Source: Pengzhenrongella frigida (lineage in GTDB: Bacteria; Actinomycetota; Actinomycetes; Actinomycetales; Cellulomonadaceae). From it: a stretch of DNA of 38,796 nucleotides. Made by a program: the position numbers and the translations under genes. The DNA lies in NCBI RefSeq assembly GCF_004168625.1, contig NZ_SDWW01000044.1, positions 1-38,796 of the forward strand. The letters are read 5' to 3'. This document shows, piece after piece, positions 4,414 to 36,412 of the stretch. The stretch's first letter is position 1, and each line of letters begins with the position of its first letter. The notes beneath the pieces were generated by a model. That model was not told the DNA's origin. It saw only the letters and a program-made list of their open reading frames with translations, and made no database searches.

Positions 4414-4650
4414 TCAGGGGGTGCGGGGTGGCACCAGACGGCGCAGGGTGTCGACCGCGGCGTCGGTGGCGGCCGTGGCGGCCAGGTTCGCTGCCTTGAC
4501 GGCGTCGATGACCTCGGCGCGGTTGACGGCGATCGACCGCGGCGCGTCGATGCCGAGGCGTACGCCGTCACTGCGTACCTCAAGGATCGTGATGACGATG
4601 TCGTCACCGATCATCAGTCGCTCGCCCACGCGACGGCTCAGCACCAGCAT
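4414..4650 (-). CDS. csrA: Carbon storage/flagellin translation regulator CsrA
   Basis: CsrA is a small dimeric RNA-binding protein that covers GGA motifs in mRNA leaders and blocks translation; in flagellated Gram-positive bacteria its main target is flagellin mRNA, relieved by FliW. The first 50 residues match the family closely (MLVLSRRVGERLMIGDDI, then RLGIDAP and AVNRAEV). The protein has 78 residues with a short Ala-rich C-terminal extension. No clear Shine-Dalgarno precedes the ATG at 4650; the sequence GCCGATAG at 4669-4676 resembles a sigma-28 -10 box but lacks a matching -35. A FliW gene at 36,035 and CsrA-type sites in the fliC leader support a flagellin-control role. Confidence 0.96.
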   Translation of the reverse strand: MLVLSRRVGERLMIGDDIVITILEVRSDGVRLGIDAPRSIAVNRAEVIDAVKAANLAATAATDAAVDTLRRLVPPRTP

Positions 4651-6050: not shown

Positions 6051-8079
6051 CTCGCACCGTCCCTACCGTCTCGATCCGAAGTCCCGATCCGGTCACCTCG
6101 GTGTAGGACAGTACTTGCAGATCGGGGCTGGCCAGCAGGACCAGCCGCCGCATCGCGGAGCGCAGCGCGGGCGCGCAGGTGAGCACGACGGGGAAGCCGT
6201 TCGCCTCCGCCACCGCCACGCACGTGCGCACCGAGCTGAGCACCCCGTCGACCCGGTCGGGGTCGAGCATGATCTGGGCGCCGCCCTCGGCGGGCCGCAG
6301 CGACTCCACGAGCTGCTGCTCGAGCATCGGGTCGACGACGATGACGCGCAGCACGCCGTCGTGCCCGTACGGGGCCGCGAGCGCGGGGCCGAGCGCGGTC
6401 CGGGCGGCGTTGACCAGCCCGGGCACGTCGGTGCCGACCTTCGCCCGCAGCGCGAGCGCCTCGTAGATCCGGCCCAGGTCGCGGATCGGCACCTGCTCGT
6501 CGAGCAGCCCGTGCAGCACGCGCTGGACCTCCCCGAGGCTGAGCAGCCCCGGCACGAGCTCGTCGACCACCGACGGGTTGACCTGCTTGACGCCCTCGGT
6601 GAGGACCCGGACGTCCTCACGGGTGAGCAGCCGCGACGCGTTCGCGCCGATGATCGAGCCGAGGTGCGTGATGAGCACCGAGACCCGGTCGATCACGGTG
6701 GCCCCGGACATCTCGGCCGCGTGCCGCAGCTCGGCGGGGATCCACTTGCCGGCCAGGCCGAAGACCGGCTCCTGGACCGCGGTGCCGGGCAGCGCCTCGA
6801 GCGAGTCACCGAGCGCGAGCATCCGCCCGACGGGCAGCTCGCCGCGGCCGACCTCGACGCCGGAGATCCGGACCGCGTAGGTCGAGCGGGGCAGGTCGAC
6901 GGAGTCGCGCGTGCGCACCGGCGGCACGACGACGCCGAGGTCGAGGGCGATCTTGCGGCGCAGCCCACGGACCCGGGAGAGCAGGTCGCCGTCGCCCCCG
7001 CCGACCAGGTCGACGAGGTCGGGCGCGAGCAGGATCTCGAGGGCGTGCACCCGCATCTGCTCGATCAGCGACTCGGGGCTGTCGGGCGACTGCGGGGCCA
7101 CCGGCGGGGCGGCGGTCAGCTCAGCGGCGGCCTCGGCCACGTCGCGGGCCTTGACCCGCTGGCCGCCGTAGATCAGCAGCGCGCCGATGATCATGAACGG
7201 CAGCTTGGGCAGGCCGGGGATCACGGCCAGGGCGACCGCGGCGACGCCGGCGATCTGCAGGGCCTGGCTCGACTGGGCGAGCTGCTTGCTCGCGGCCGAG
7301 CCGAGGTCGCCGTCGGCCGTGGCTCGCGTGACGATGATGCCGCTCGAGACCGAGAGCAGCAGGGCCGGGATCTGGGTGACGAGACCGTCGCCGATGGTCA
7401 GCAGGCTGAAGTGCTCGAGCGCCTCGCCGGCGGACATGCCCATCTGCAGCATGCCGATGACGAATCCGCCGATGAGGTTGATCAGCGTGATGATGATGCC
7501 GGCGATCGCGTCACCCTTGACGAACTTGGACCCACCGTCCATCGCGCCGTAGAAGTCCGCCTCGGCGCCGACGTCGGCCCGGCGCCGGCGCGCGGTGTCC
7601 TCGTCGATGAGCCCCGAGTTGAGGTCGGCGTCGATCGCCATCTGCTTGCCGGGCATGGCGTCCAGGGTGAACCGGGCCCCGACCTCGGCCACGCGCCCGG
7701 CGCCGTTCGTGATCACGACGAACTGGATGACGACCAGGATCATGAAGATCACGAGGCCGATCACGAGCGAGCCGCCCACGACGAAGTGCCCGAACGCCTC
7801 GATGACCTCCCCCGCGTACCCGTCGCGCAGCACCAGCCGGGTCGAGGCGACGTTGAGCCCGAGCCGGAACAGCGTGGCGACGAGCAGCAACGACGGGAAG
7901 ATCGAGAAGTCGAGCGGCCGCTTGACGTACATGGACGTCAGCAGGATCACGAGCGAGCCGATGATGTTGACGATGATCAGCAGGTCGAGCAGCTGCGCGG
8001 GGATCGGCACCACGAGCAGCATGACGATGCCGACGACGCCGGCGGGGACCGCGAGCCCGGCAATGTTCGTGTTCTTCAT
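6028..8079 (-). CDS. flhA: Flagellar export gate protein FlhA
   Basis: FlhA is the large export-gate subunit of the flagellar type III secretion system; it forms a nine-fold cytoplasmic ring that docks chaperone-substrate complexes. The 683-residue product has about eight membrane helices in the first 320 residues, the conserved cytoplasmic FHIPEP-type loop (ARFTLDAMPGKQMAIDADLN and the RRRADVGAEADFYGAMDG block), then a globular cytoplasmic domain. The ATG at 8079 (MKNTNIAGL) has GAGGA upstream. A frame extending to 8259 adds 60 Pro/Arg-rich residues that do not resemble FlhA. It is followed by the overlapping FlhF-like gene. Confidence 0.97.
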   Translation of the reverse strand: MKNTNIAGLAVPAGVVGIVMLLVVPIPAQLLDLLIIVNIIGSLVILLTSMYVKRPLDFSIFPSLLLVATLFRLGLNVASTRLVLRDGYAGEVIEAFGHFVVGGSLVIGLVIFMILVVIQFVVITNGAGRVAEVGARFTLDAMPGKQMAIDADLNSGLIDEDTARRRRADVGAEADFYGAMDGGSKFVKGDAIAGIIITLINLIGGFVIGMLQMGMSAGEALEHFSLLTIGDGLVTQIPALLLSVSSGIIVTRATADGDLGSAASKQLAQSSQALQIAGVAAVALAVIPGLPKLPFMIIGALLIYGGQRVKARDVAEAAAELTAAPPVAPQSPDSPESLIEQMRVHALEILLAPDLVDLVGGGDGDLLSRVRGLRRKIALDLGVVVPPVRTRDSVDLPRSTYAVRISGVEVGRGELPVGRMLALGDSLEALPGTAVQEPVFGLAGKWIPAELRHAAEMSGATVIDRVSVLITHLGSIIGANASRLLTREDVRVLTEGVKQVNPSVVDELVPGLLSLGEVQRVLHGLLDEQVPIRDLGRIYEALALRAKVGTDVPGLVNAARTALGPALAAPYGHDGVLRVIVVDPMLEQQLVESLRPAEGGAQIMLDPDRVDGVLSSVRTCVAVAEANGFPVVLTCAPALRSAMRRLVLLASPDLQVLSYTEVTGSGLRIETVGTVRDAHAIAA

Positions 8080-8212
8080 CGACTCGTCCTCGTTCGGGTG
8101 GGCCTGGTGGCTCGGGCGGGGCTGGCGGGGCGTGCGGGGCTGGCAGGGCGCGCGTGCCGGGCGGGCGGGGGGATCGCGTGGCCCGGGGGGCTCAGCGGTG
8201 GCCGGGGGAAGG
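8080..8212. other. G/C-repetitive spacer between flhB and flhA
   Basis: A 133-base gap, unusual in an operon where most genes overlap. It contains imperfect tandem copies of a GGGCTGGC(A/G)GGGCG-type unit between about 8118 and 8170 (plus-strand reading), giving a C-rich stretch in the mRNA. No gene or promoter was recognised. Confidence 0.5.
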
Positions 8213-9307
8213 TCACGCGGCCCTCCGGTCCGGGACGGTGTGCACGCCCTGGGCGGCACCGCGGCGGCGCAGCGACATGACGAACGCGAGGATCTTGGCG
8301 ACCTGGACGAACAGGTCCTCGGGCACCTCCTGGCCGAGCTTGCAGGCCGCGTTCAGCGCCCGCGCGAGCGGCACGTCCGCGACCATCGGCACGCGCTTGG
8401 CCGTGGCCTCCGCGCGGATGCGGGCGGCGACGTGGCCGGAACCCTTGGCCACCACCCGCGGGGCGCCGTGCCCGGGTTCGTACTTGAGCGCGACGGCGAC
8501 GTGGGTGGGGTTGACGAGCACGACGTCGGCCGTGGCGATCGCCGCCATCATGCGGTTGCGGCTCATCGCCAGCTGCTTGGACCGGATCGCGCCCTTGAGC
8601 AGCGGGTCACCCTCGCTCGACTTGCTCTCCTGCTTGATCTCCTGGGTGCTCATCATCGTCTGCTTCCGGTTCGTCTTCCGGATCACGAGGATGTCGAACA
8701 CCGCGAGGATCAGGCCCGCGGCGACGGCGGTGCGCATCAGGTCGGCGACGCCGCCGGCGGCGAGGTCGAGGACCTGGTGCAGGGACAGCCCGCCGGACGT
8801 CAGCAGCATCGGGGTGATGTTCTTGACGGTGACGAACAGGACCCCGGCCACGACGATCGTCTTGAGCAGCGCCTTGAGGCCCTGCCACCAGGCCTGCCCG
8901 CCGAACACGCGCTTGAGGCCCTTGACCAGGTTGAACTGCTTGAACGTGGGCTTGAGCTTCTTCGTCGAGAAGTAGATGCCGCCCTGCGCCGCGGAGCCAC
9001 CGATGGCGGCGATCACGACGACGACGAGCAGCGGCGCGATGGCCGGCAGGATCGTCGTCGTACCGTCGAAGAGCGCCTGGACGGCCACGGCCGGGTCCGG
9101 GTTGGCGATGATCGCGCGCACCACCGTGAGCTGTTGGACCGCGTTCGCGGTCCCGGTCGCGAGCACGGCGGACAGCGTCATCGCCGCCACCCCCATGCCG
9201 AGCCACGCGGACAGGTCCTGCGACCGCTGCAGCGCACCGTCGTGGCGCAGCTGCTTCATGCGCTTCGGGGTGGCCTTGTGGGACTTGTCGCCGGCGTCGC
9301 CGCTCAT
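8213..9307 (-). CDS. flhB: Flagellar export switch protein FlhB
   Basis: FlhB controls the switch from rod/hook to filament export. Four membrane helices fall in the N-terminal 210 residues, followed by a cytoplasmic domain with the self-cleavage motif NPTH at residues 266-269 (context VVLVNPTHVAVALKY). The N-terminus KSHKATPKRMKQLRHDG is typical. The 364-residue length is normal. The ATG at 9307 overlaps the fliR stop (ATGA). The C-terminal tail after about 350 is short and Arg-rich. Confidence 0.97.
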   Translation of the reverse strand: MSGDAGDKSHKATPKRMKQLRHDGALQRSQDLSAWLGMGVAAMTLSAVLATGTANAVQQLTVVRAIIANPDPAVAVQALFDGTTTILPAIAPLLVVVVIAAIGGSAAQGGIYFSTKKLKPTFKQFNLVKGLKRVFGGQAWWQGLKALLKTIVVAGVLFVTVKNITPMLLTSGGLSLHQVLDLAAGGVADLMRTAVAAGLILAVFDILVIRKTNRKQTMMSTQEIKQESKSSEGDPLLKGAIRSKQLAMSRNRMMAAIATADVVLVNPTHVAVALKYEPGHGAPRVVAKGSGHVAARIRAEATAKRVPMVADVPLARALNAACKLGQEVPEDLFVQVAKILAFVMSLRRRGAAQGVHTVPDRRAA

Positions 9308-10065
9308 CCGGACACCCCCATCAACGTGGTCATGGCCTCGCCCGTGAGGTGCGAGACCAGCTGCGGCAGCGCGACGAACGCGGTGCCGGCCAGCATCAGG
9401 GTCAGCAGGATCTTCAGCGGGAAGCCGAGCGCGAACGCGTTCAGCGCCGGGGCGACGCGCGTGAGCAGACCGAGGCCGACGTCGGCCAGGAAGAGGACGA
9501 CGGCGAGCGGGCCCGCGATCTGCAGCGTCGCGACGAACATCGCGGTGAGCCCGGCCGTGCTGGACGCGGCCATGGCCGCGAGGTCGAGCGACATGCCGAG
9601 CGGCAGCACGTCGAACGTGCGGACCAGCCCGAGGATGACGATCTGGTACCCGTCCGAGGCGAAGAGAAGGACGATCGCCGTCAGCTGGTAGAGCCGGGCG
9701 AACTGCGCACCGCTGAACTGGCCCATCGGGTCATAGGCCTGCGACATCTGGAACCCGGCCAGCAGGTCGATCAGCCCGCCGGCGGACTGCAGCGCGGCGA
9801 ACACCAGCGCGACGAGGAACCCGAGGGCGGCGCCGATCAGGACCTGCATGAGGAGCTGGCCGACGAACGCGGCGACGTCGGTCGGGTCGGACGCCGCCCG
9901 GGCGCGCGGCGCGATGAGCAGCGCCAGGGCGAGGGCGAGCATCACCCGGACGGTGTTGGGGATCCCGCGGTGGGCGAACGGTGGGGCGATGATGAGGAAC
10001 GTCACGATCCGGACCCCGGCCAGCATCACCGACTCGAGCCCGACCCACGGCAGGGCGAAGGTCAT
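9304..10065 (-). CDS. fliR: Flagellar export gate protein FliR
   Basis: FliR is an integral membrane subunit of the FliP5-FliQ4-FliR1 export gate. The 253-residue product is of usual length, strongly hydrophobic, with a typical RIVTFLIIAPPFAHRGIP start and several membrane helices to the C-terminus. It begins one base after the fliQ stop and its own stop overlaps the flhB start. Confidence 0.95.
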   Translation of the reverse strand: MTFALPWVGLESVMLAGVRIVTFLIIAPPFAHRGIPNTVRVMLALALALLIAPRARAASDPTDVAAFVGQLLMQVLIGAALGFLVALVFAALQSAGGLIDLLAGFQMSQAYDPMGQFSGAQFARLYQLTAIVLLFASDGYQIVILGLVRTFDVLPLGMSLDLAAMAASSTAGLTAMFVATLQIAGPLAVVLFLADVGLGLLTRVAPALNAFALGFPLKILLTLMLAGTAFVALPQLVSHLTGEAMTTLMGVSG

Positions 10066-27858: not shown

Positions 27859-29256
27859 TCACGAGTTGTTGCTGCCGGTCAGCGAGGTCAGCTGGCTGGT
27901 GAGCCAGTCGGACTGGGAGTTCAGCTTGCCGAGGGCGACCTCGAGGCCCGCGTAGCTCTTCTCCAGGGCCGCACGCCGCAGCTCGAGCCGGTTGTCCCAG
28001 CCCAGGACCTGGTCACCCAGACCCTTGACGTAGCTCTGCTGACTGGTGATCTTCAGCGAGAGTGCGCCCACGATCGGGTCGGACTGGTCGTCCGCGAGCT
28101 CTGCGACCCGAGCGGCCATCCCGCTGATGACGGACTGGACCTTCGCGGGGTCGGCGGCCAGGGCCGCGGAGAAGATCGTCGCGTCGAACGTGAAGGTGCC
28201 GTCCTTGCCGAGGACGATGCCCATCGACGACGGCGAGATCCCGTCCACCGGCGCCGAGGCCGCCGTGAGGAGGGACTGCTTGAGGGTGCGCACCGAGTTG
28301 TCGGCGGTGAAGATCCCGCCCGTGACGAGGGTGCGTCCGGTGCTGTCCGTCGTGGTGGAGGACTTCGTCCGCGAGGTGATCTCCGCGAGCACCGTGGAGA
28401 GGTTGGTGACGAGCCCAGAAGCGAGGGCCGTCAACGCGGCGTTGTCACGCTTGACGGTGAGGGTGACGGGATCCGCCTCGACCTTGGAGATCGTGAAGTC
28501 GACCCCCGTCAGGACGCCCGCGAAGGTGTTGGTGGCCGACGTGACGATCTGCTCGACGCCCGTGCCCTTCCACAGGGTGATCTGCGCGTCTGCCGCGTTG
28601 GTGATGGCGAAGGCGGGGGCCCGGCCCATCAGCGGCGTCGCCGCGGCCACGTCGGCAGCGGCGACCGAGCCGCTGTAGAGGTCGAAGGCCCCCGCGACGC
28701 CGGTCGACTTGCTCGAGAGCTGCAGGCGGGACTCGGTGGCGGAGATCTTGACCAGCGTCGCAGTGACGCCGGCATCGGCGTCGTTGATCGCGGTCGCGAG
28801 GCTCGCGAGGTCGGTGACCCCGGTCATCGAGATCTCCGCGACGGTCGGGCTCGCGGGCGATCCGGTCGCAAGCGTGAGCGTCGCAGGGGTAACGCCACCG
28901 AAGAAGCCGGTCAGGTCCGTCACGGCCGCACTGACCGAGGTCTGGCGCGTCGCGATCGCGTCGACCTGGAAGGTCAGCGATCCCGCCGAAGCGGTGGCGG
29001 AGGCCGACGACGTGACCGACGTGGCCGAGCTGGCCGAGGTCACCGCACCCCAGGAGGTGGCAGACGAGGCCTTCGTGGCTGAGTCGCCGAGCGAGGAGAC
29101 CTTCGTGTTGAGGGATTGCAGGGCGGTGACGAACGTGCCGGTCGTGCTGACCTTCGTCTTCAGCGCCGTCTGCGGGAGCGCCTCCAGCGTCATCAACTGG
29201 GTGATCATCGAGGTGGTATCAATGCCGCTGATCAGTCCATCGATCGCTGCGCTCAT
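27859..29256 (-). CDS. fliD: Filament cap protein FliD
   Basis: FliD forms the cap under which flagellin assembles. The 465-residue product has the family start (IDGLISGIDTTSMITQLMTL, then EALPQTALKTKVS) and a C-terminal coiled coil ending in LNSQSDWLTSQLTSLTGS. The middle is Ala/Thr-rich and variable. The ATG at 29,256 has GGAGG seven bases upstream; the open frame to 29,364 adds a Pro/Arg-rich stretch not found in FliD. Confidence 0.95.
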   Translation of the reverse strand: MSAAIDGLISGIDTTSMITQLMTLEALPQTALKTKVSTTGTFVTALQSLNTKVSSLGDSATKASSATSWGAVTSASSATSVTSSASATASAGSLTFQVDAIATRQTSVSAAVTDLTGFFGGVTPATLTLATGSPASPTVAEISMTGVTDLASLATAINDADAGVTATLVKISATESRLQLSSKSTGVAGAFDLYSGSVAAADVAAATPLMGRAPAFAITNAADAQITLWKGTGVEQIVTSATNTFAGVLTGVDFTISKVEADPVTLTVKRDNAALTALASGLVTNLSTVLAEITSRTKSSTTTDSTGRTLVTGGIFTADNSVRTLKQSLLTAASAPVDGISPSSMGIVLGKDGTFTFDATIFSAALAADPAKVQSVISGMAARVAELADDQSDPIVGALSLKITSQQSYVKGLGDQVLGWDNRLELRRAALEKSYAGLEVALGKLNSQSDWLTSQLTSLTGSNNS

Positions 29257-29325
29257 CGGGTACCTCCATCTCCTGGTGTCGTGATGCGGTCGCGCCGAGC
29301 TCGTGTCTGCCTGACGAGTGAAATG

Positions 29326-29371
29326 CCGATCGGTGGGGCGCGGACGCTTAGGTCCACGCCCCACCGATCGG
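29326..29371 (-). terminator. Terminator of fliC
   Basis: A 15-bp perfect stem (29326-29340 with 29357-29371) continues, after one mismatch, with a 4-bp inner stem and a 6-base loop. It lies about 95 bases past the fliC stop and before fliD, so it likely ends the abundant flagellin mRNA and lets fliD be controlled separately. Only a short U-containing stretch (CATTTC) follows. Confidence 0.7.
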
Positions 29372-29466
29372 TCATACCGGGTCGTGCTGTAGTGCTTTGG
29401 TGCTACCAGATCGGCTGAACTCTGAGCTCGTCCGCGTTGCAGGTAGCGCCGGTAGTGAAGGCAGGC

Positions 29467-30657
29467 TTACTGCAGGAGCTGCAGCACGCCCTGGGGGATC
29501 GACTTCGCCTGCGCGAGCATCGCCGTGCCGGCCTGCGAGAGGATCTGCGAGCGGGTGAAGCTGATCATCTCGGACGCCATGTCGGTGTCGCGGATGCGGC
29601 TCTCGGAGGCGGTCAGGTTCTCGACCGCGACGTTGAGGTTGTTGATCGTGTGCTCGAACCGGTTCTGCACGGCACCCAGGTTTGAGCGCGTGCTGGAGAC
29701 GGTCGTGATGGCCTTGTCGATGATGCCGATGGCCTCAGAGGCACCCGACGCCTGCGTGAACGTGACCGAAGCCGCGGCCACGGCAGAAGCGGTCGCTCCG
29801 GCTGCGGGGGTCTTGCCGGTGACCACGAGAGTGCTACCCGTGACCGTCGCGCTGGCGATGTCCGACCCGAACGCAGCGGTGACCGCGTTCTGCAGAACGG
29901 TGGTGCGGTCAGCGACGTCGGTGGTGCCGTTCGGCGCCGCGTACTTGATCGTCGACAGGTCGAGGCTCTTGGACCCGACCGTGATCGTGCCGTTGAGGTC
30001 GTCGAAGCCCGCAGCCGTCGCGAGGTCCGAACCACCCGTCGAAGCCGTCGTGACGGTACCGGCGGTACCGGCGACCGCGTTGACGACAGCGGCAGTCGTG
30101 GCGCCAACGGCGGTGCCGGTGACGTTGATGGCCGTGGTCCCGAGACCCGCAGCGGACATGCCCGTACCGGAGAGGTTGACGGTGATCGTCTCGCCGGCGT
30201 TCGCGCCCACCTGGAAGGTGCCGCTGCTGTACGTGCCGTCGAGCAGACGCGACCCGTTGAACTTGGTCGTGTCGGCGATGCGGGTCAGCTCCGAGTTGAG
30301 CTGGTTCACCTCGGTCTGGATGTTGGTCTTGGCGTCGGCGTTCAGCGAACCGGAGTTCGACGCCTGGACCGACAGGTCACGCATGCGCTGGAGGATCGAG
30401 TGGGTCTCGTTCAGCGCGCCTTCAGCGGTCTGGACGAGCGAGATGCCGTCCTGGGCGTTACGGACGCCCATCTTGATGCCGCCGATCTGCGAGCGCATGC
30501 CCTCGGAGATCGCCAGGCCGGCAGCGTCATCGGCCGCGCGGTTGATGCGGAAACCACTGGAGAGCTTCTCGAGCGACTTGCTCAGGTCGTTCTGCGTGGT
30601 GTTGAGGTTGCGGTACGCGTTGAGCGCCGCGACGTTCGTGTTGATCGAGAGAGCCAT
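29467..30657 (-). CDS. fliC: Flagellin, filament protein
   Basis: The filament subunit, 396 residues. The N-terminal D0/D1 region is fully conserved (SINTNVAALNAYRNL, LSSGFRINRAADDAAGLAIS, GVRNAQDGISLVQTAEGAL) and so is the C-terminal one (NLTASESRIRDTDMASEM, SQILSQAGTAMLAQA, ending VLQLLQ). The central variable domain (about 140-300) is Ala/Thr/Gly-rich. Its ATG has a perfect AGGAGG, a sigma-28 type promoter about 60 bases upstream, and CsrA-type GGA sites in the leader. A strong hairpin follows the gene. A diverged paralog lies just upstream at 30,910-31,821. Confidence 0.98.
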   Translation of the reverse strand: MALSINTNVAALNAYRNLNTTQNDLSKSLEKLSSGFRINRAADDAAGLAISEGMRSQIGGIKMGVRNAQDGISLVQTAEGALNETHSILQRMRDLSVQASNSGSLNADAKTNIQTEVNQLNSELTRIADTTKFNGSRLLDGTYSSGTFQVGANAGETITVNLSGTGMSAAGLGTTAINVTGTAVGATTAAVVNAVAGTAGTVTTASTGGSDLATAAGFDDLNGTITVGSKSLDLSTIKYAAPNGTTDVADRTTVLQNAVTAAFGSDIASATVTGSTLVVTGKTPAAGATASAVAAASVTFTQASGASEAIGIIDKAITTVSSTRSNLGAVQNRFEHTINNLNVAVENLTASESRIRDTDMASEMISFTRSQILSQAGTAMLAQAKSIPQGVLQLLQ

Positions 30658-30663
30658 GAGAAT

Positions 30664-30700
30664 CCTCCTGTTTGTGAACCGCTACCGCCCGTCCATGGGC
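30664..30700 (-). promoter_or_regulatory. CsrA-type binding sites in the fliC leader
   Basis: On the mRNA, GCCCATGGACGGGC (30700-30687) folds into a 4-bp stem with a six-base loop AUGGAC, showing GGA in the loop as known CsrA targets do. About 20 bases downstream, CAGGAGGAT holds a second GGA set that overlaps the Shine-Dalgarno (30669-30664). Two sites, one over the ribosome site, is the known layout in Bacillus hag mRNA. csrA and fliW are both in this window. Confidence 0.7.
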
Positions 30701-30711
30701 TGGCAGTGTGC

Positions 30712-30738
30712 TTATCGGTCCCCCGTGCTGGCCGTTAA
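30712..30738 (-). promoter_or_regulatory. Sigma-28 (FliA) promoter of fliC
   Basis: The minus strand reads TTAA (30738-30735), 15 bases, then ACCGATAA (30719-30712). The known flagellar sigma consensus is TAAA-N15-GCCGATAA. The predicted start of transcription is near 30,705, giving a leader of about 48 bases. fliA lies upstream in the same window. Confidence 0.8.
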
Positions 30739-30847
30739 GGATTCCCGCCAAGAAATCTCTACCGGGAAGGGCATCCCCCCGATCGGCCTAGTGGCGACCG
30801 GCGGATCACCGAGGCAACAAGCCGTGAAGACCCGATTCAATAAGGAA

Positions 30848-30878
30848 GCCCCACCCCTCCGTGACAGGGGGCAGGGCC
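30848..30878 (-). terminator. Possible terminator of the flagellin-like gene
   Basis: A GC-rich imperfect hairpin (CCCCT at 30854-30858 with AGGGG at 30866-30870, plus outer CCC/GGG pairs), about 30 bases past the stop of the flagellin paralog. On the minus strand it is followed by CTTCCTTATT, a T-rich stretch that is rare in this genome, which supports an intrinsic terminator. Confidence 0.5.
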
Positions 30879-30909
30879 TCTTCGCGCAGGTGCGATTCGT
30901 GCAGCTGGG

Positions 30910-31821
30910 TCAGTACAGCAGCTGAGCAACGCTCGGGGAGATCGACGCGGCCTGGGCGAGCATCGCCGCTCCGGCCTGCGCCACGATGTCCGCGGCCGTG
31001 ACCCTGACCTGTCCGGCCGCCGTGCTGTGGTCCCGGATCGGGGACAAGCGCGCGGAGGTCCCCGCGACCGCGAGGTCGGCCCCAGACTCGGACCCGTCCT
31101 GGACGGCGTTCGGATCGAGGCGGGCGGCGGCGTCCTGGACGGCATTCGGGTCAACGGGCGTGGTGGCGCCCTGGACGGCGTTCAGGTCCAGGTCGGTCGA
31201 GGTCGCCGCGGTCGCCGAGGTCGGCGCGGCGATCAGAGCCTTCGGGTCGACGTCGACGGCCTCGCCGGCGACAGCCGCGCTTGCGACAGCCGAGCCGAAG
31301 ACGGCCGCGATCGCGGCCCGGAGCTTGCCGGCACGGGCGGCGGGGCCGTCCGTCGGCAGGTACTCGACGGTGGTCAGGTCGAGGGTCTTGCGCCCGACCG
31401 TGATGATGCCCTTCGGTTCGATCACCGCAGGCGCCCGTTCGGGCTCTGGCTGAGCCAGGACACCCGAGGCACCGGCCGACACCACAGCCGAGCCACCGGC
31501 ACCGGTCCCCCGCCCGGCGGTCGCGACGGAGATCGATCCGGTCTTCCCCGCCCCCGCGCCGATCGGAACGGGACCCGAGGCGCCGTCGGGCACCTGGTGG
31601 CTGGTGAACGAGATCGTGTCCGTGATGGGCATCGCCGCGCGATCGATCGGCCCACCCCCGCTCTGGCGGGTCCCGGTCGCGTCCGGGTGCGGGGCACGAG
31701 ACACCGGGACGGGTGTGCGGCTCACGGACGTCGAAGCCTGGGTGGCCGGGTCCGGCTGCGCGGGAGCGACGTTCCGGTACGCGGTGCGTGCCGCGGCGTT
31801 GGTCGTGATCGTCAGGGCCAC
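30910..31821 (-). CDS. Decayed flagellin paralog, reading frame intact
   Basis: A 303-residue product clearly derived from FliC. Start: MALTITTNAAARTAYRNV against MALSINTNVAALNAYRNL. Middle: GIITVGRKTLDLTTVEY against GTITVGSKSLDLSTIKY, and VFGSAVASAAVAG against AFGSDIASATVTG. End: DIVAQAGAAMLAQAASI against QILSQAGTAMLAQAKSI. FliC residues about 28-97, with the first D1 helix and the NRAADDAAGLAIS motif, are missing, and the remaining helices are broken by Pro and Gly, so it should not polymerise as normal flagellin. Yet the frame is open over 303 codons, with a GTG start and GGAGGA ribosome site. It contains a 12-residue unit repeated three times. It could be a relic kept by chance, a secreted minor filament protein or a FliS/FliW/CsrA titrator; the last two are speculation. 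Confidence 0.8.
   Translation of the reverse strand: MALTITTNAAARTAYRNVAPAQPDPATQASTSVSRTPVPVSRAPHPDATGTRQSGGGPIDRAAMPITDTISFTSHQVPDGASGPVPIGAGAGKTGSISVATAGRGTGAGGSAVVSAGASGVLAQPEPERAPAVIEPKGIITVGRKTLDLTTVEYLPTDGPAARAGKLRAAIAAVFGSAVASAAVAGEAVDVDPKALIAAPTSATAATSTDLDLNAVQGATTPVDPNAVQDAAARLDPNAVQDGSESGADLAVAGTSARLSPIRDHSTAAGQVRVTAADIVAQAGAAMLAQAASISPSVAQLLY
31084..31191 (-). repeat. 36-bp triple repeat in the flagellin paralog
   Basis: Residues 211-246 are three 12-residue units, each with (D/L)xNAVQ at the same place (NAVQ at 214, 226 and 238). FliC has a single LGAVQ motif at the matching region (327-331), so the repeat probably arose from amplification of that motif. Confidence 0.85.
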
Positions 31822-31906
31822 GATGTCTTCCTCCGTGAGTGGGGCTGATACTGCTGAGCTCGCACGATCAGCCCACGCCCCCGGGACTGGCCGTGCCCGA
31901 ACGACG

Positions 31907-31944
31907 ATGCCCCGCTCCTACCGGTGACGGAAGGAGCAGGGCAT
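31907..31944 (-). terminator. Terminator of fliA
   Basis: ATGCCC (31907-31912) pairs with GGGCAT (31939-31944) and GCTCCT (31914-31919) with AGGAGC (31932-31937), with one mismatch between, making a 13-position stem about 25 bases past the fliA stop. It separates fliA from the flagellin paralog. The rest of the spacer (31,822-31,969) shows the GGAGGA site of the paralog but no clear promoter. Confidence 0.6.
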
Positions 31945-31969
31945 GGCCGAAACGCGCGATCCGAGCGTG

Positions 31970-32989
31970 TCAGGCGGTGGCGTACCCCGCGCCTTCGTGC
32001 ATGAACGCGTCGACCTCCTGAGAGTCCGGGCGCTGGCTGGGCAGCCGACCCGGTCCGGGCGTCGCGAGCTGCGAAGCGCGGGCCAGGAACGAGGCCTGCT
32101 GCGCGACGAGCTCGAAGTACGCCTTCCGGCGACGCTCGGCGACGCCGTCGGGCCGGTCGGCGGCGGGCACGAGCGCCGGCTCGAGGCTGGCGTTCATGCC
32201 GTCCTTCATCAGGGCGAGCGCCTCGGTGCGCAGCTGGCTGATGCGGGACTGCGTGACGCCCAGCTCGTCCGCGAGGTCGATGACGGGCCGATCCTCGAAG
32301 AAGAGCTGCTCGACGACGTACTTGAGCCGCTCAGGCAGGGACGTCACCGCTGCGCGCAGGTGCTGCAGCTTCTCGTTGACGAGGAGGGTCTCCTCGGGGC
32401 CCATGCTGGGCTCGGAGACGGTGTCGGCGATCGCGCTGTCGAATGCCTCGATGCTGAGGATGCGGCGGTCGGCGTCGCCCCGGGCGGCGTCGATCTCGGC
32501 CACGGTGGTGCCGAGCGTCGCCGCGAGCTCCTCGCGGGACGGCGTACGCCCGAACTGCGAGGTGAGCTCGTCGCGGGTGGTGCTGACGCGGCGTGCACGC
32601 TGGCGGGCTCCGCGGGAGACCCAGTCCATCGAGCGGAGCTCGTCGAGCAGCGCACCGCGGATGCGGAGCGCCGCGTACCGGGCGAAGGGAACCCCGGTCG
32701 TGACGTCGAACGCCTGGGCGGCCCGCACCAGGGCGAGCGACCCGGCGGAGGCCAGGTCGTCGCGCGACACATAGGAGGGGACACGGCCGAGCAGCTCGGA
32801 GACGTGATATCCCACAAGAGGGAGGTTCGCCGTCACGAGGGCGTCGATGCTTGCGTCGGGGTTGGGCACAAAGAGGTTCTCGTCCCCGGGGCACCCGGTC
32901 TTGAGGATCTGGGCGAAGCAAGTTCTCACAACCCCGACCGACCAGTCGATCGCCTCCGCGCTCCCCGCTCCGACCTGCGGCTTTACCAT
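31970..32989 (-). CDS. fliA: Flagellar sigma factor FliA with N- and C-terminal extensions
   Basis: A sigma-28 type factor that directs RNA polymerase to late flagellar promoters such as that of fliC. Region 2 (about 48-128: NLPLVGYHVSELLGR, GSLALVRAAQAFD, FARYAALRIRGALLDELRS), region 3 (135-175) and region 4 (212-265: LPERLKYVVEQLFFED, LADELGVTQSRISQLRTEAL) are complete. About 46 residues precede region 2 and 75 follow region 4, giving 339 residues against about 240 usually. The tail has a helix (AERRRKAYFELVAQQASF). The ATG at 32,989 has GGGAG six bases upstream. No FlgM anti-sigma gene is in the window. A CRP-type box lies 17-32 bases before the start. Confidence 0.93.
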   Translation of the reverse strand: MVKPQVGAGSAEAIDWSVGVVRTCFAQILKTGCPGDENLFVPNPDASIDALVTANLPLVGYHVSELLGRVPSYVSRDDLASAGSLALVRAAQAFDVTTGVPFARYAALRIRGALLDELRSMDWVSRGARQRARRVSTTRDELTSQFGRTPSREELAATLGTTVAEIDAARGDADRRILSIEAFDSAIADTVSEPSMGPEETLLVNEKLQHLRAAVTSLPERLKYVVEQLFFEDRPVIDLADELGVTQSRISQLRTEALALMKDGMNASLEPALVPAADRPDGVAERRRKAYFELVAQQASFLARASQLATPGPGRLPSQRPDSQEVDAFMHEGAGYATA

Positions 32990-36034: not shown

Positions 36035-36412
36035 ATGACCACTCTCGTCCATCCCGTCACACCGCTCCCGGGCCTGCCCGAGCACCTCGAGTACGAGCTC
36101 GACGGTCTCGACGACGACGGCACGCTCTTCGCGCTGCGCAGCGCGAGCAACCCCGCCGTGCGCCTGTTCGTCGTCCGACCCGAGGTGTTCTTCGCCGACT
36201 ACACCCCCACGGTCGGCGCCTCCACCCGCGAGGCGCTCGGCCTGGCCGACGGCGATGACCCGCTGCTGCTCGTCGTCGTCCACCCGGGATATGACCAGGT
36301 CCCGACGACGGCGAACCTGCTGGCCCCCGTCGTGATCAACCTCGCCACCGGCGCGGCCTGCCAGGTCGTCCTCGACGACAGCGGTTGGCCGATGCAGGCT
36401 CCGCTCGGCTGA
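36035..36412 (+). CDS. fliW: Flagellar assembly factor FliW, CsrA antagonist
   Basis: FliW binds CsrA and blocks it; when unexported flagellin builds up, flagellin takes FliW away and CsrA shuts its own mRNA off. The sequence shows the family landmarks: PGLPEHLEYELDGLDDDGTL, then FALRSASNPAVRLFVVRP, FFADYTP, TANLLAPVVINLATGAACQV and LDD at the end. The ATG at 36,035 (MTTLVHPVTP) is preferred by spacing from AAGG; an in-frame GTG at 36,026 overlaps the flgL stop and would add three residues. In many bacteria fliW is next to csrA; here they are more than 31 kb apart, at the two ends of the island. Confidence 0.92.
   Translation: MTTLVHPVTPLPGLPEHLEYELDGLDDDGTLFALRSASNPAVRLFVVRPEVFFADYTPTVGASTREALGLADGDDPLLLVVVHPGYDQVPTTANLLAPVVINLATGAACQVVLDDSGWPMQAPLG

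Follow-up and report, generated by a model that had tools for sequence, protein, structure and literature searches.

Non-structural secreted flagellins are known from Campylobacter, where FlaC (PMC4863622) is reported, in the part of the paper drawn on here, to be expressed and secreted, and from Vibrio, where the same is reported, in a likewise partial view of the source, for non-structural flagellin-homologous proteins (PMC6692518). A third comparison is FljJ of Caulobacter (PMC7591256), presented in the sections of its report used here as a regulatory flagellin which has 49% identity to other flagellins and acts with FlbT. The main text of a survey of actinobacterial flagella (PMC10746217) does not contain the word Cellulomonas, and no degenerate flagellin paralog like the one described below appeared in the titles and abstract openings among the literature matches listed, which came mostly from outside subscription journals.

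The locus lies in a 38,796-nt stretch of Pengzhenrongella frigida DNA (contig NZ_SDWW01000044.1; hereafter the window) and reads, on the minus strand, fliA, paralog, fliC, fliD, where fliD was named by reading and place, and sigma-70 regions and flagellin domains were assigned by Pfam. The paralog (30910..31821, minus strand; ORF list, sequence homology, and Pfam) is a 303 aa ORF with a GTG start, and a GGAGGA ribosome-binding site is read directly 7 nt 5' of the GTG (31829..31834, minus strand); the coordinates, strand, start, length, and ribosome-binding site are all as given in a preliminary description of this DNA. Upstream of it is a sigma-70 family factor with sigma-70 regions 2, 3, and 4 by Pfam (31970..32989, minus strand), flagellar by its place and presumably FliA. 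Downstream is fliC (29467..30657, minus strand), an intact flagellin of 396 aa by Pfam and structure model. The genes csrA (4495-4650, minus strand) and fliW (36059-36406, plus strand) are within the window as well. Taken as a whole, the paralog is a real and unusual flagellin relative, apparently coding for most of its history, without evident flagellin-type regulation, and probably incapable of forming a filament.

Compared with the bacterial flagellin FliC/Hag, defined by Flagellin_N and Flagellin_C, the paralog is alike in origin, fliC-adjacent position, end-to-end alignability, and C-terminal end, whereas it differs in its unmatched Flagellin_N, the deletion of much of its D1 core, the prolines in its helix columns, and the lack of a leader hairpin. 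With FlaC and the Vibrio proteins, so far as the partial accounts of them go, it would share a flagellin origin, an inability to build a filament, and possible flagellar export, and with FljJ, on a similarly partial account, it would share being a flagellin paralog unable to make a filament alone. In contrast, FlaC and the Vibrio proteins are reported as expressed and secreted, and the 49% identity and the link to FlbT belong to FljJ, whereas the paralog is a predicted protein whose divergence from its flagellin exceeds what the models of the flagellin families accept.

The homology of the paralog to FliC is beyond chance. The two proteins align from the first to the last residue with 34% identity over 297 aligned residues when FliC residues 27-67 and 88-107 are left out, the placement of the 20 residues between these two gaps being uncertain, and in a search the paralog matches the fliC of its own genome over residues 65-302 (E 3.9e-14, 53.6 bits). 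Likeness to FliC at the first 18 residues, which the preliminary description had claimed, is borne out by 67% identity over residues 1-18 (31768..31821, minus strand, by alignment). The same description had FliC residues of about 28-97 as gone; much of the D1 core is indeed missing, but through two gaps rather than one. Residues 136-200 (31222..31416, minus strand), which by alignment and model correspond to the outer (D2/D3) region of FliC, have 43% identity, residues 256-303 (30913..31056, minus strand; alignment and model) have 48% identity to the FliC C-terminal end, and the four regions outside these three segments have only 20-30%. The best matches of the paralog are the fliC genes of other genera, namely those of genomes G163 (a member of the family, matched over paralog residues 47-302 with E 1.9e-19 and 70 bits) and G197 (59.5 bits), both above its own fliC. 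Since these best matches lie in other genera and synonymous codons between paralog and fliC are saturated (61 of 100 identical versus 56.6 expected), either the split is old or the sites evolve fast. Placement of the paralog in a tree was rejected as untrustworthy because its branch is too long, with about 10 changes per column. Gene conversion with fliC was also considered and rejected: the longest common exact string is 13 nt, and 3 of 20 codon-shuffled controls also reach 13.

Searches among relatives returned fliC itself. In the family, 33 of 221 genomes (its own included, 10 candidates scored per genome) match the paralog protein at E <= 1e-6. Nine of the 32 matches in other genomes were compared with the window proteins and all nine lie within fliC, the frames of the remaining listed matches are 387 to 1566 codons long, and no second copy of the paralog was seen among the family matches examined. 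A search at the level of the order, covering 396 genomes from the larger group with 5 candidates scored each, gave nothing better than fliC, the match in genome G499 falling in that gene. Plasmids yielded no match to the paralog protein at E <= 1e-5 and, when searched with the whole fliC-fliA stretch, flagellin genes of 60-80% identity, none of which covered most of the stretch; 246 stretches of GTDB genome contigs fit a pattern, and 0 were confirmed as the paralog. The gap between fliA and fliC measures 122, 217, and 296 bp in the congeners G003, G002, and G004, which leaves no room for the paralog, and 102-175 bp in six other family genomes; in the congener G001, the contig starts 201 bp before fliC. 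The preliminary description had held that missing copies in close relatives would speak against a maintained gene, and this is in part what was found, the gene being absent from all three congeners with a readable gap. A separate gene in related species, as would be expected of a non-structural secreted flagellin, was seen neither in these three congeners nor among the family matches examined. On these genomes, the paralog appears lineage-restricted, seen in one genome only, which counts against the explanation that we prefer below.

Several lines of evidence bear on whether such a protein could enter a filament. Flagellin_N has no match in the paralog at E <= 10, and a genome-wide search with this domain retrieved fliC and flgL only. 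Flagellin_C is matched at E 1.4e-4 with 22.5 bits versus a cut-off of 23 bits by hmmscan, and with 24.5 bits in the genome search, while a search of NCBIfam gave weak flagellin matches only (best E 1e-4). The paralog has 15 prolines in the columns of the FliC terminal helices versus 0-2 in 62 FliCs, which agrees with the claim that its helices are interrupted by proline. Among the 77 columns with at least 95% conservation across FliCs that are also occupied in the paralog, it retains the conserved residue in 34 and differs in 43. The AlphaFold2 model of the paralog, built on a 26-sequence alignment, has a pLDDT of 50.5 and a pTM of 0.31. In contrast, a control with FliC and the same 26 sequences reached a pLDDT of 82.4 and a pTM of 0.65 and yielded long helices. 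In the paralog model, the pLDDT exceeds 60 only around residues 131-200 and 271-300 and is below 50 over residues 1-10, 15-132, and 201-271, and the D0/D1 coiled coil is not predicted. Residues 139-183 are modelled as strand-strand-helix (pLDDT 85-89 over 141-180) and a helix over 276-293 has moderate model confidence (block means 62-76), so that in the model confident structure is left only in part of the outer domain. A fold search of the PDB with this model gave 11 matches, none at E <= 0.001. Because Flagellin_N is unmatched, the helix columns hold 15 prolines, and the model is poor, a role as filament subunit is unlikely. A specific alternative, that the product is an exported and mostly disordered protein rich in Ala, Thr, Gly, and Pro, consisting of the two flagellin ends that serve export and chaperone binding and a small outer-domain module and freed from sigma28 and CsrA control, is one that we judge unlikely. 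The term decayed flagellin paralog, used in the preliminary description, is apt insofar as much of the D1 core is lost, the helix columns hold prolines, and the coding frame has stayed, but the open frame alone is weak evidence at this GC.

Selection on the paralog was estimated with a branch test on 8 of 63 distinct sequences over 296 codons, with the paralog fixed next to the fliC of its own genome, which was the best placement of three compared. The branch has a dN/dS of 0.51 (0.48-0.51 over the three placements), and a value of 1 is rejected with one class (2dlnL 7.2) as well as with three background classes (2dlnL 7.1), with p of about 0.008; these rates are rough since synonymous sites are saturated. 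This is the check that the preliminary description had proposed, and the value near 1 that it thought damaging was not obtained for the branch as a whole. Constraint like that of the background is also rejected (2dlnL 73), and constraint on the paralog is far weaker than on FliC, which counts against our preferred explanation. By region, the dN/dS is 0.57 at the termini, where it is indistinguishable from 1 (2dlnL 1.8), a further point against that explanation, and 0.36 in the rest (2dlnL 5.8 against 1); for residues 136-200 by themselves, the fit reached a bound and was set aside. Third-position identity above chance is 0.44 at the termini, 0.29 in residues 136-200, and 0.11 in the rest, so the conservation of the termini is not clean evidence of selection on the protein; the rest may also be misaligned.

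The open frame and its composition allow the possibility to be weighed that the paralog is a pseudogene, neutral since duplication and open by chance in high-GC DNA. The paralog has 303 open codons without stop or frameshift, and its fliC match over 65-302 is continuous and in frame, with residues 1-18 in the same frame, in a comparison that covered the paralog's own frame. A 36-bp tandem repeat of 2.5 copies (31095..31183, minus strand), with units around DPNAVQD, has a period that is a multiple of 3 and so preserves the frame, and GC by codon position is 0.711/0.628/0.885 against an intergenic GC in the window of 0.63 over 818 bp; all of this argues against such a pseudogene, as does the dN/dS. 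What agrees with it is that identity to fliC is flat by codon position (0.54, 0.57, and 0.55), a point against our preferred explanation too, and that long spurious ORFs are common in the region, where ORFs of 273 to 530 aa overlap known genes on the wrong strand or in the wrong frame within the same 10 kb. Neutral drift from fliC was also simulated in 5000 runs to a distance in agreement with the identity observed, 0.65 substitutions per site, and 1-23% of the simulated copies were free of stops, depending on the neutral GC. The argument that a relic this diverged should have collected stops is thus only weakly right, given these simulations, the spurious ORFs nearby, and a GC of 71%. A GC3 as high as that observed together with an open frame was reached in 0 of 5000 runs at a neutral GC of 0.63, 0.70, or 0.75; the share was 0.1% at 0.80 and 4.2% at 0.85, so at 0.85 lifelong neutrality is excluded less than firmly, which again counts against the preferred explanation. 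Nevertheless, with a branch dN/dS of about 0.5 and a GC3 of 0.89 that drift retains only if the neutral GC is about 0.85, neutral decay throughout the history of the paralog is disfavoured, and we regard the neutral pseudogene as improbable. Judging from codon composition and substitution rates, the paralog seems to have been translated, under weak constraint, for most of that time.

In its regulatory sequences, the paralog is unlike its neighbour. The fliC gene has a sigma28-like promoter, TTAA-N15-ACCGATAA, at -81 (30712..30738, minus strand), and its leader has a hairpin, GCCC-ATGGAC-GGGC (30687..30700, minus strand), that has the form of a CsrA site and is absent from the paralog by a scan of its leader. 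For the paralog, no sigma28-like promoter is evident, the best sites scoring 6 or 7 of 12, depending on which of two forms of the consensus is used, in a scan that is weak and unspecific (a score of 8 is attained by 27.8% of shuffled leaders and missed by 7 of 63 fliC leaders), and a sigma-70 scan of 29200-32100 found no promoter. The missing hairpin and the missing sigma28-like site were both counted against the preferred explanation. The 148-nt gap between fliA and the paralog folds unusually stably (z -4.2) and contains a strong hairpin with a 13-bp outer stem and no U tail (31907..31944, minus strand, by folding), perhaps the end of the fliA transcript, and this hairpin makes read-through from fliA doubtful. 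An inverted repeat, GGGCTGAT/ATCAGCCC (31842..31874, minus strand; by reading, folding z -2.2), lies in the paralog leader and is not of the CsrA type. The context of the ribosome-binding site, CACTCACGGAGGAAGA, looks closer to the fliC leaders of some relatives (loci L048 and L040) than to its own fliC leader. Pairwise alignment of the paralog and fliC leaders is uninformative. The terminator-like hairpin noted earlier 3' of the paralog is present (30849..30869, minus strand), but it is one of 2 sites in 29200-32100 where 0.7 are expected by chance, and the folding of 30850-30912 is ordinary (z 0.15).

These features bring in a dying gene, that is, a once-useful flagellin copy which has lost its promoter and leader and is drifting, but is too young to have gained stops or lost its codon bias. 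The lack of an evident sigma28-like site and CsrA-type hairpin would fit, as would the weak constraint, the occurrence in one genome, a codon index below that of fliC (0.665 in frame, with 0.32-0.56 in the other five frames, versus 0.748), and the flat codon-position GC of residues 91-135 (0.76/0.71/0.76); both GC3 and the open frame are compatible with neutral drift that is recent and amounts to no more than about 0.1 substitutions per site. The intact ribosome-binding site and the leader's own inverted repeat speak against it, and so short a drift cannot give about 10 changes per column, so that a long phase of altered constraint must have preceded any dying. We consider a dying gene a serious possibility, though one to which we lean less than to the following.

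Our preferred explanation, held tentatively and at somewhat short of an even chance, is that the paralog is a non-structural flagellin-like protein, translated and weakly selected for most of its history. A second fliC copy would have arisen between fliA and fliC and, with the loss of much of its N-terminal D1 coiled-coil core, would have lost the ability to polymerise, while codon-position composition and a dN/dS of about 0.5 suggest translation and weak selection over most of the time since; a codon index higher in frame than in the other five frames also counts in favour. Its best-preserved portions are residues 1-18, a section of the outer domain that is exposed, and the C-terminal end. 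The ends of flagellin serve export and FliS binding. If the paralog is expressed, the likeliest course would be that it enters the flagellar export route or binds FliS or FliW but stays out of the filament, and its synthesis would escape the control that sigma28 and CsrA have over fliC. A narrower proposal, that it is a specific regulator or decoy, comparable in principle to FljJ, which ties up FliS or FliW and in this way adjusts how CsrA controls fliC, draws on the partly kept C-terminal end (48%) and on the presence of both fliW and csrA in the window, but the terminal dN/dS is not below 1 by test, and we hold it to be very improbable. The paralog may best be read as a non-structural flagellin relative that is restricted to its lineage and weakly constrained, and that is possibly exported and possibly dying. 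Should it be expressed, it would reveal the minimum of a flagellin that suffices for remaining in the export pathway, and FliS, FliW, and export signals could be tested with a natural flagellin that lacks the polymerisation core; if dying, it would be a snapshot of a bacterial duplicate whose function and regulation are lost while its codons still look selected.

The hairpin of the fliC leader was also followed in 63 actinobacterial fliC leaders, which include three near-identical tandem copies. In 53 of the 63, a hairpin lies 39-50 nt upstream of the start codon, its stem at least 4 bp long and its six-base loop containing ANGGA; 56 of the 63 have one at any position in the leader, versus 2% of shuffled leaders. 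Among 54 named loci (window 30687-30700 and L053-L105), 44 have it, and their stems show compensatory changes, with both partners replaced in pairs 3 and 4 (C-G to T-A, G-C, or A-T; G-C to A-T or C-G). The hairpin is a likely CsrA site, with csrA and fliW in the same window; among the literature matches listed, no paper on such a hairpin in actinobacterial fliC leaders was named.

Other loci seen in the course of this work include fliA-fliC gaps of 1769-1863 bp in L047, L048, and L050, which were considered as carriers of the paralog and rejected, as they hold other long ORFs. These ORFs, of 517-548 aa (L047 7529-9103, L048 4394-5947, L050 7857-9503), look like glycosyltransferases by reading, possibly for flagellin. 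A weak Flagellin_C match in G208 (18.5 bits, below the cut-off) was set aside for want of any likeness to the flagellar proteins of the window, and the third match in G042, also weak, proved to be the end of a second FlgL where the contig stops. There, L181 (G042:C161) has two facing flgL copies (7583-8461 and 8822-9400), the second cut by the contig end, which reflect either a duplication or an assembly artefact. In L179 (G107:C9), a second flagellin C-terminal end at about 1501-1761 (76 bits, 56% identity to FliC over 84 residues) lies away from the main fliC in a 187-codon frame without an ORF of at least 120 aa, and is probably a broken copy, in contrast to the open paralog. Among the matches listed, tandem flagellin copies number three in G003 and four in G162, and since they are not rare in the family, a flagellin duplicate as such is not odd. 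The three in G003 (L040, 6471-9487) are full flagellins, and in the ~100 bases that precede the start codon their leaders look the same.
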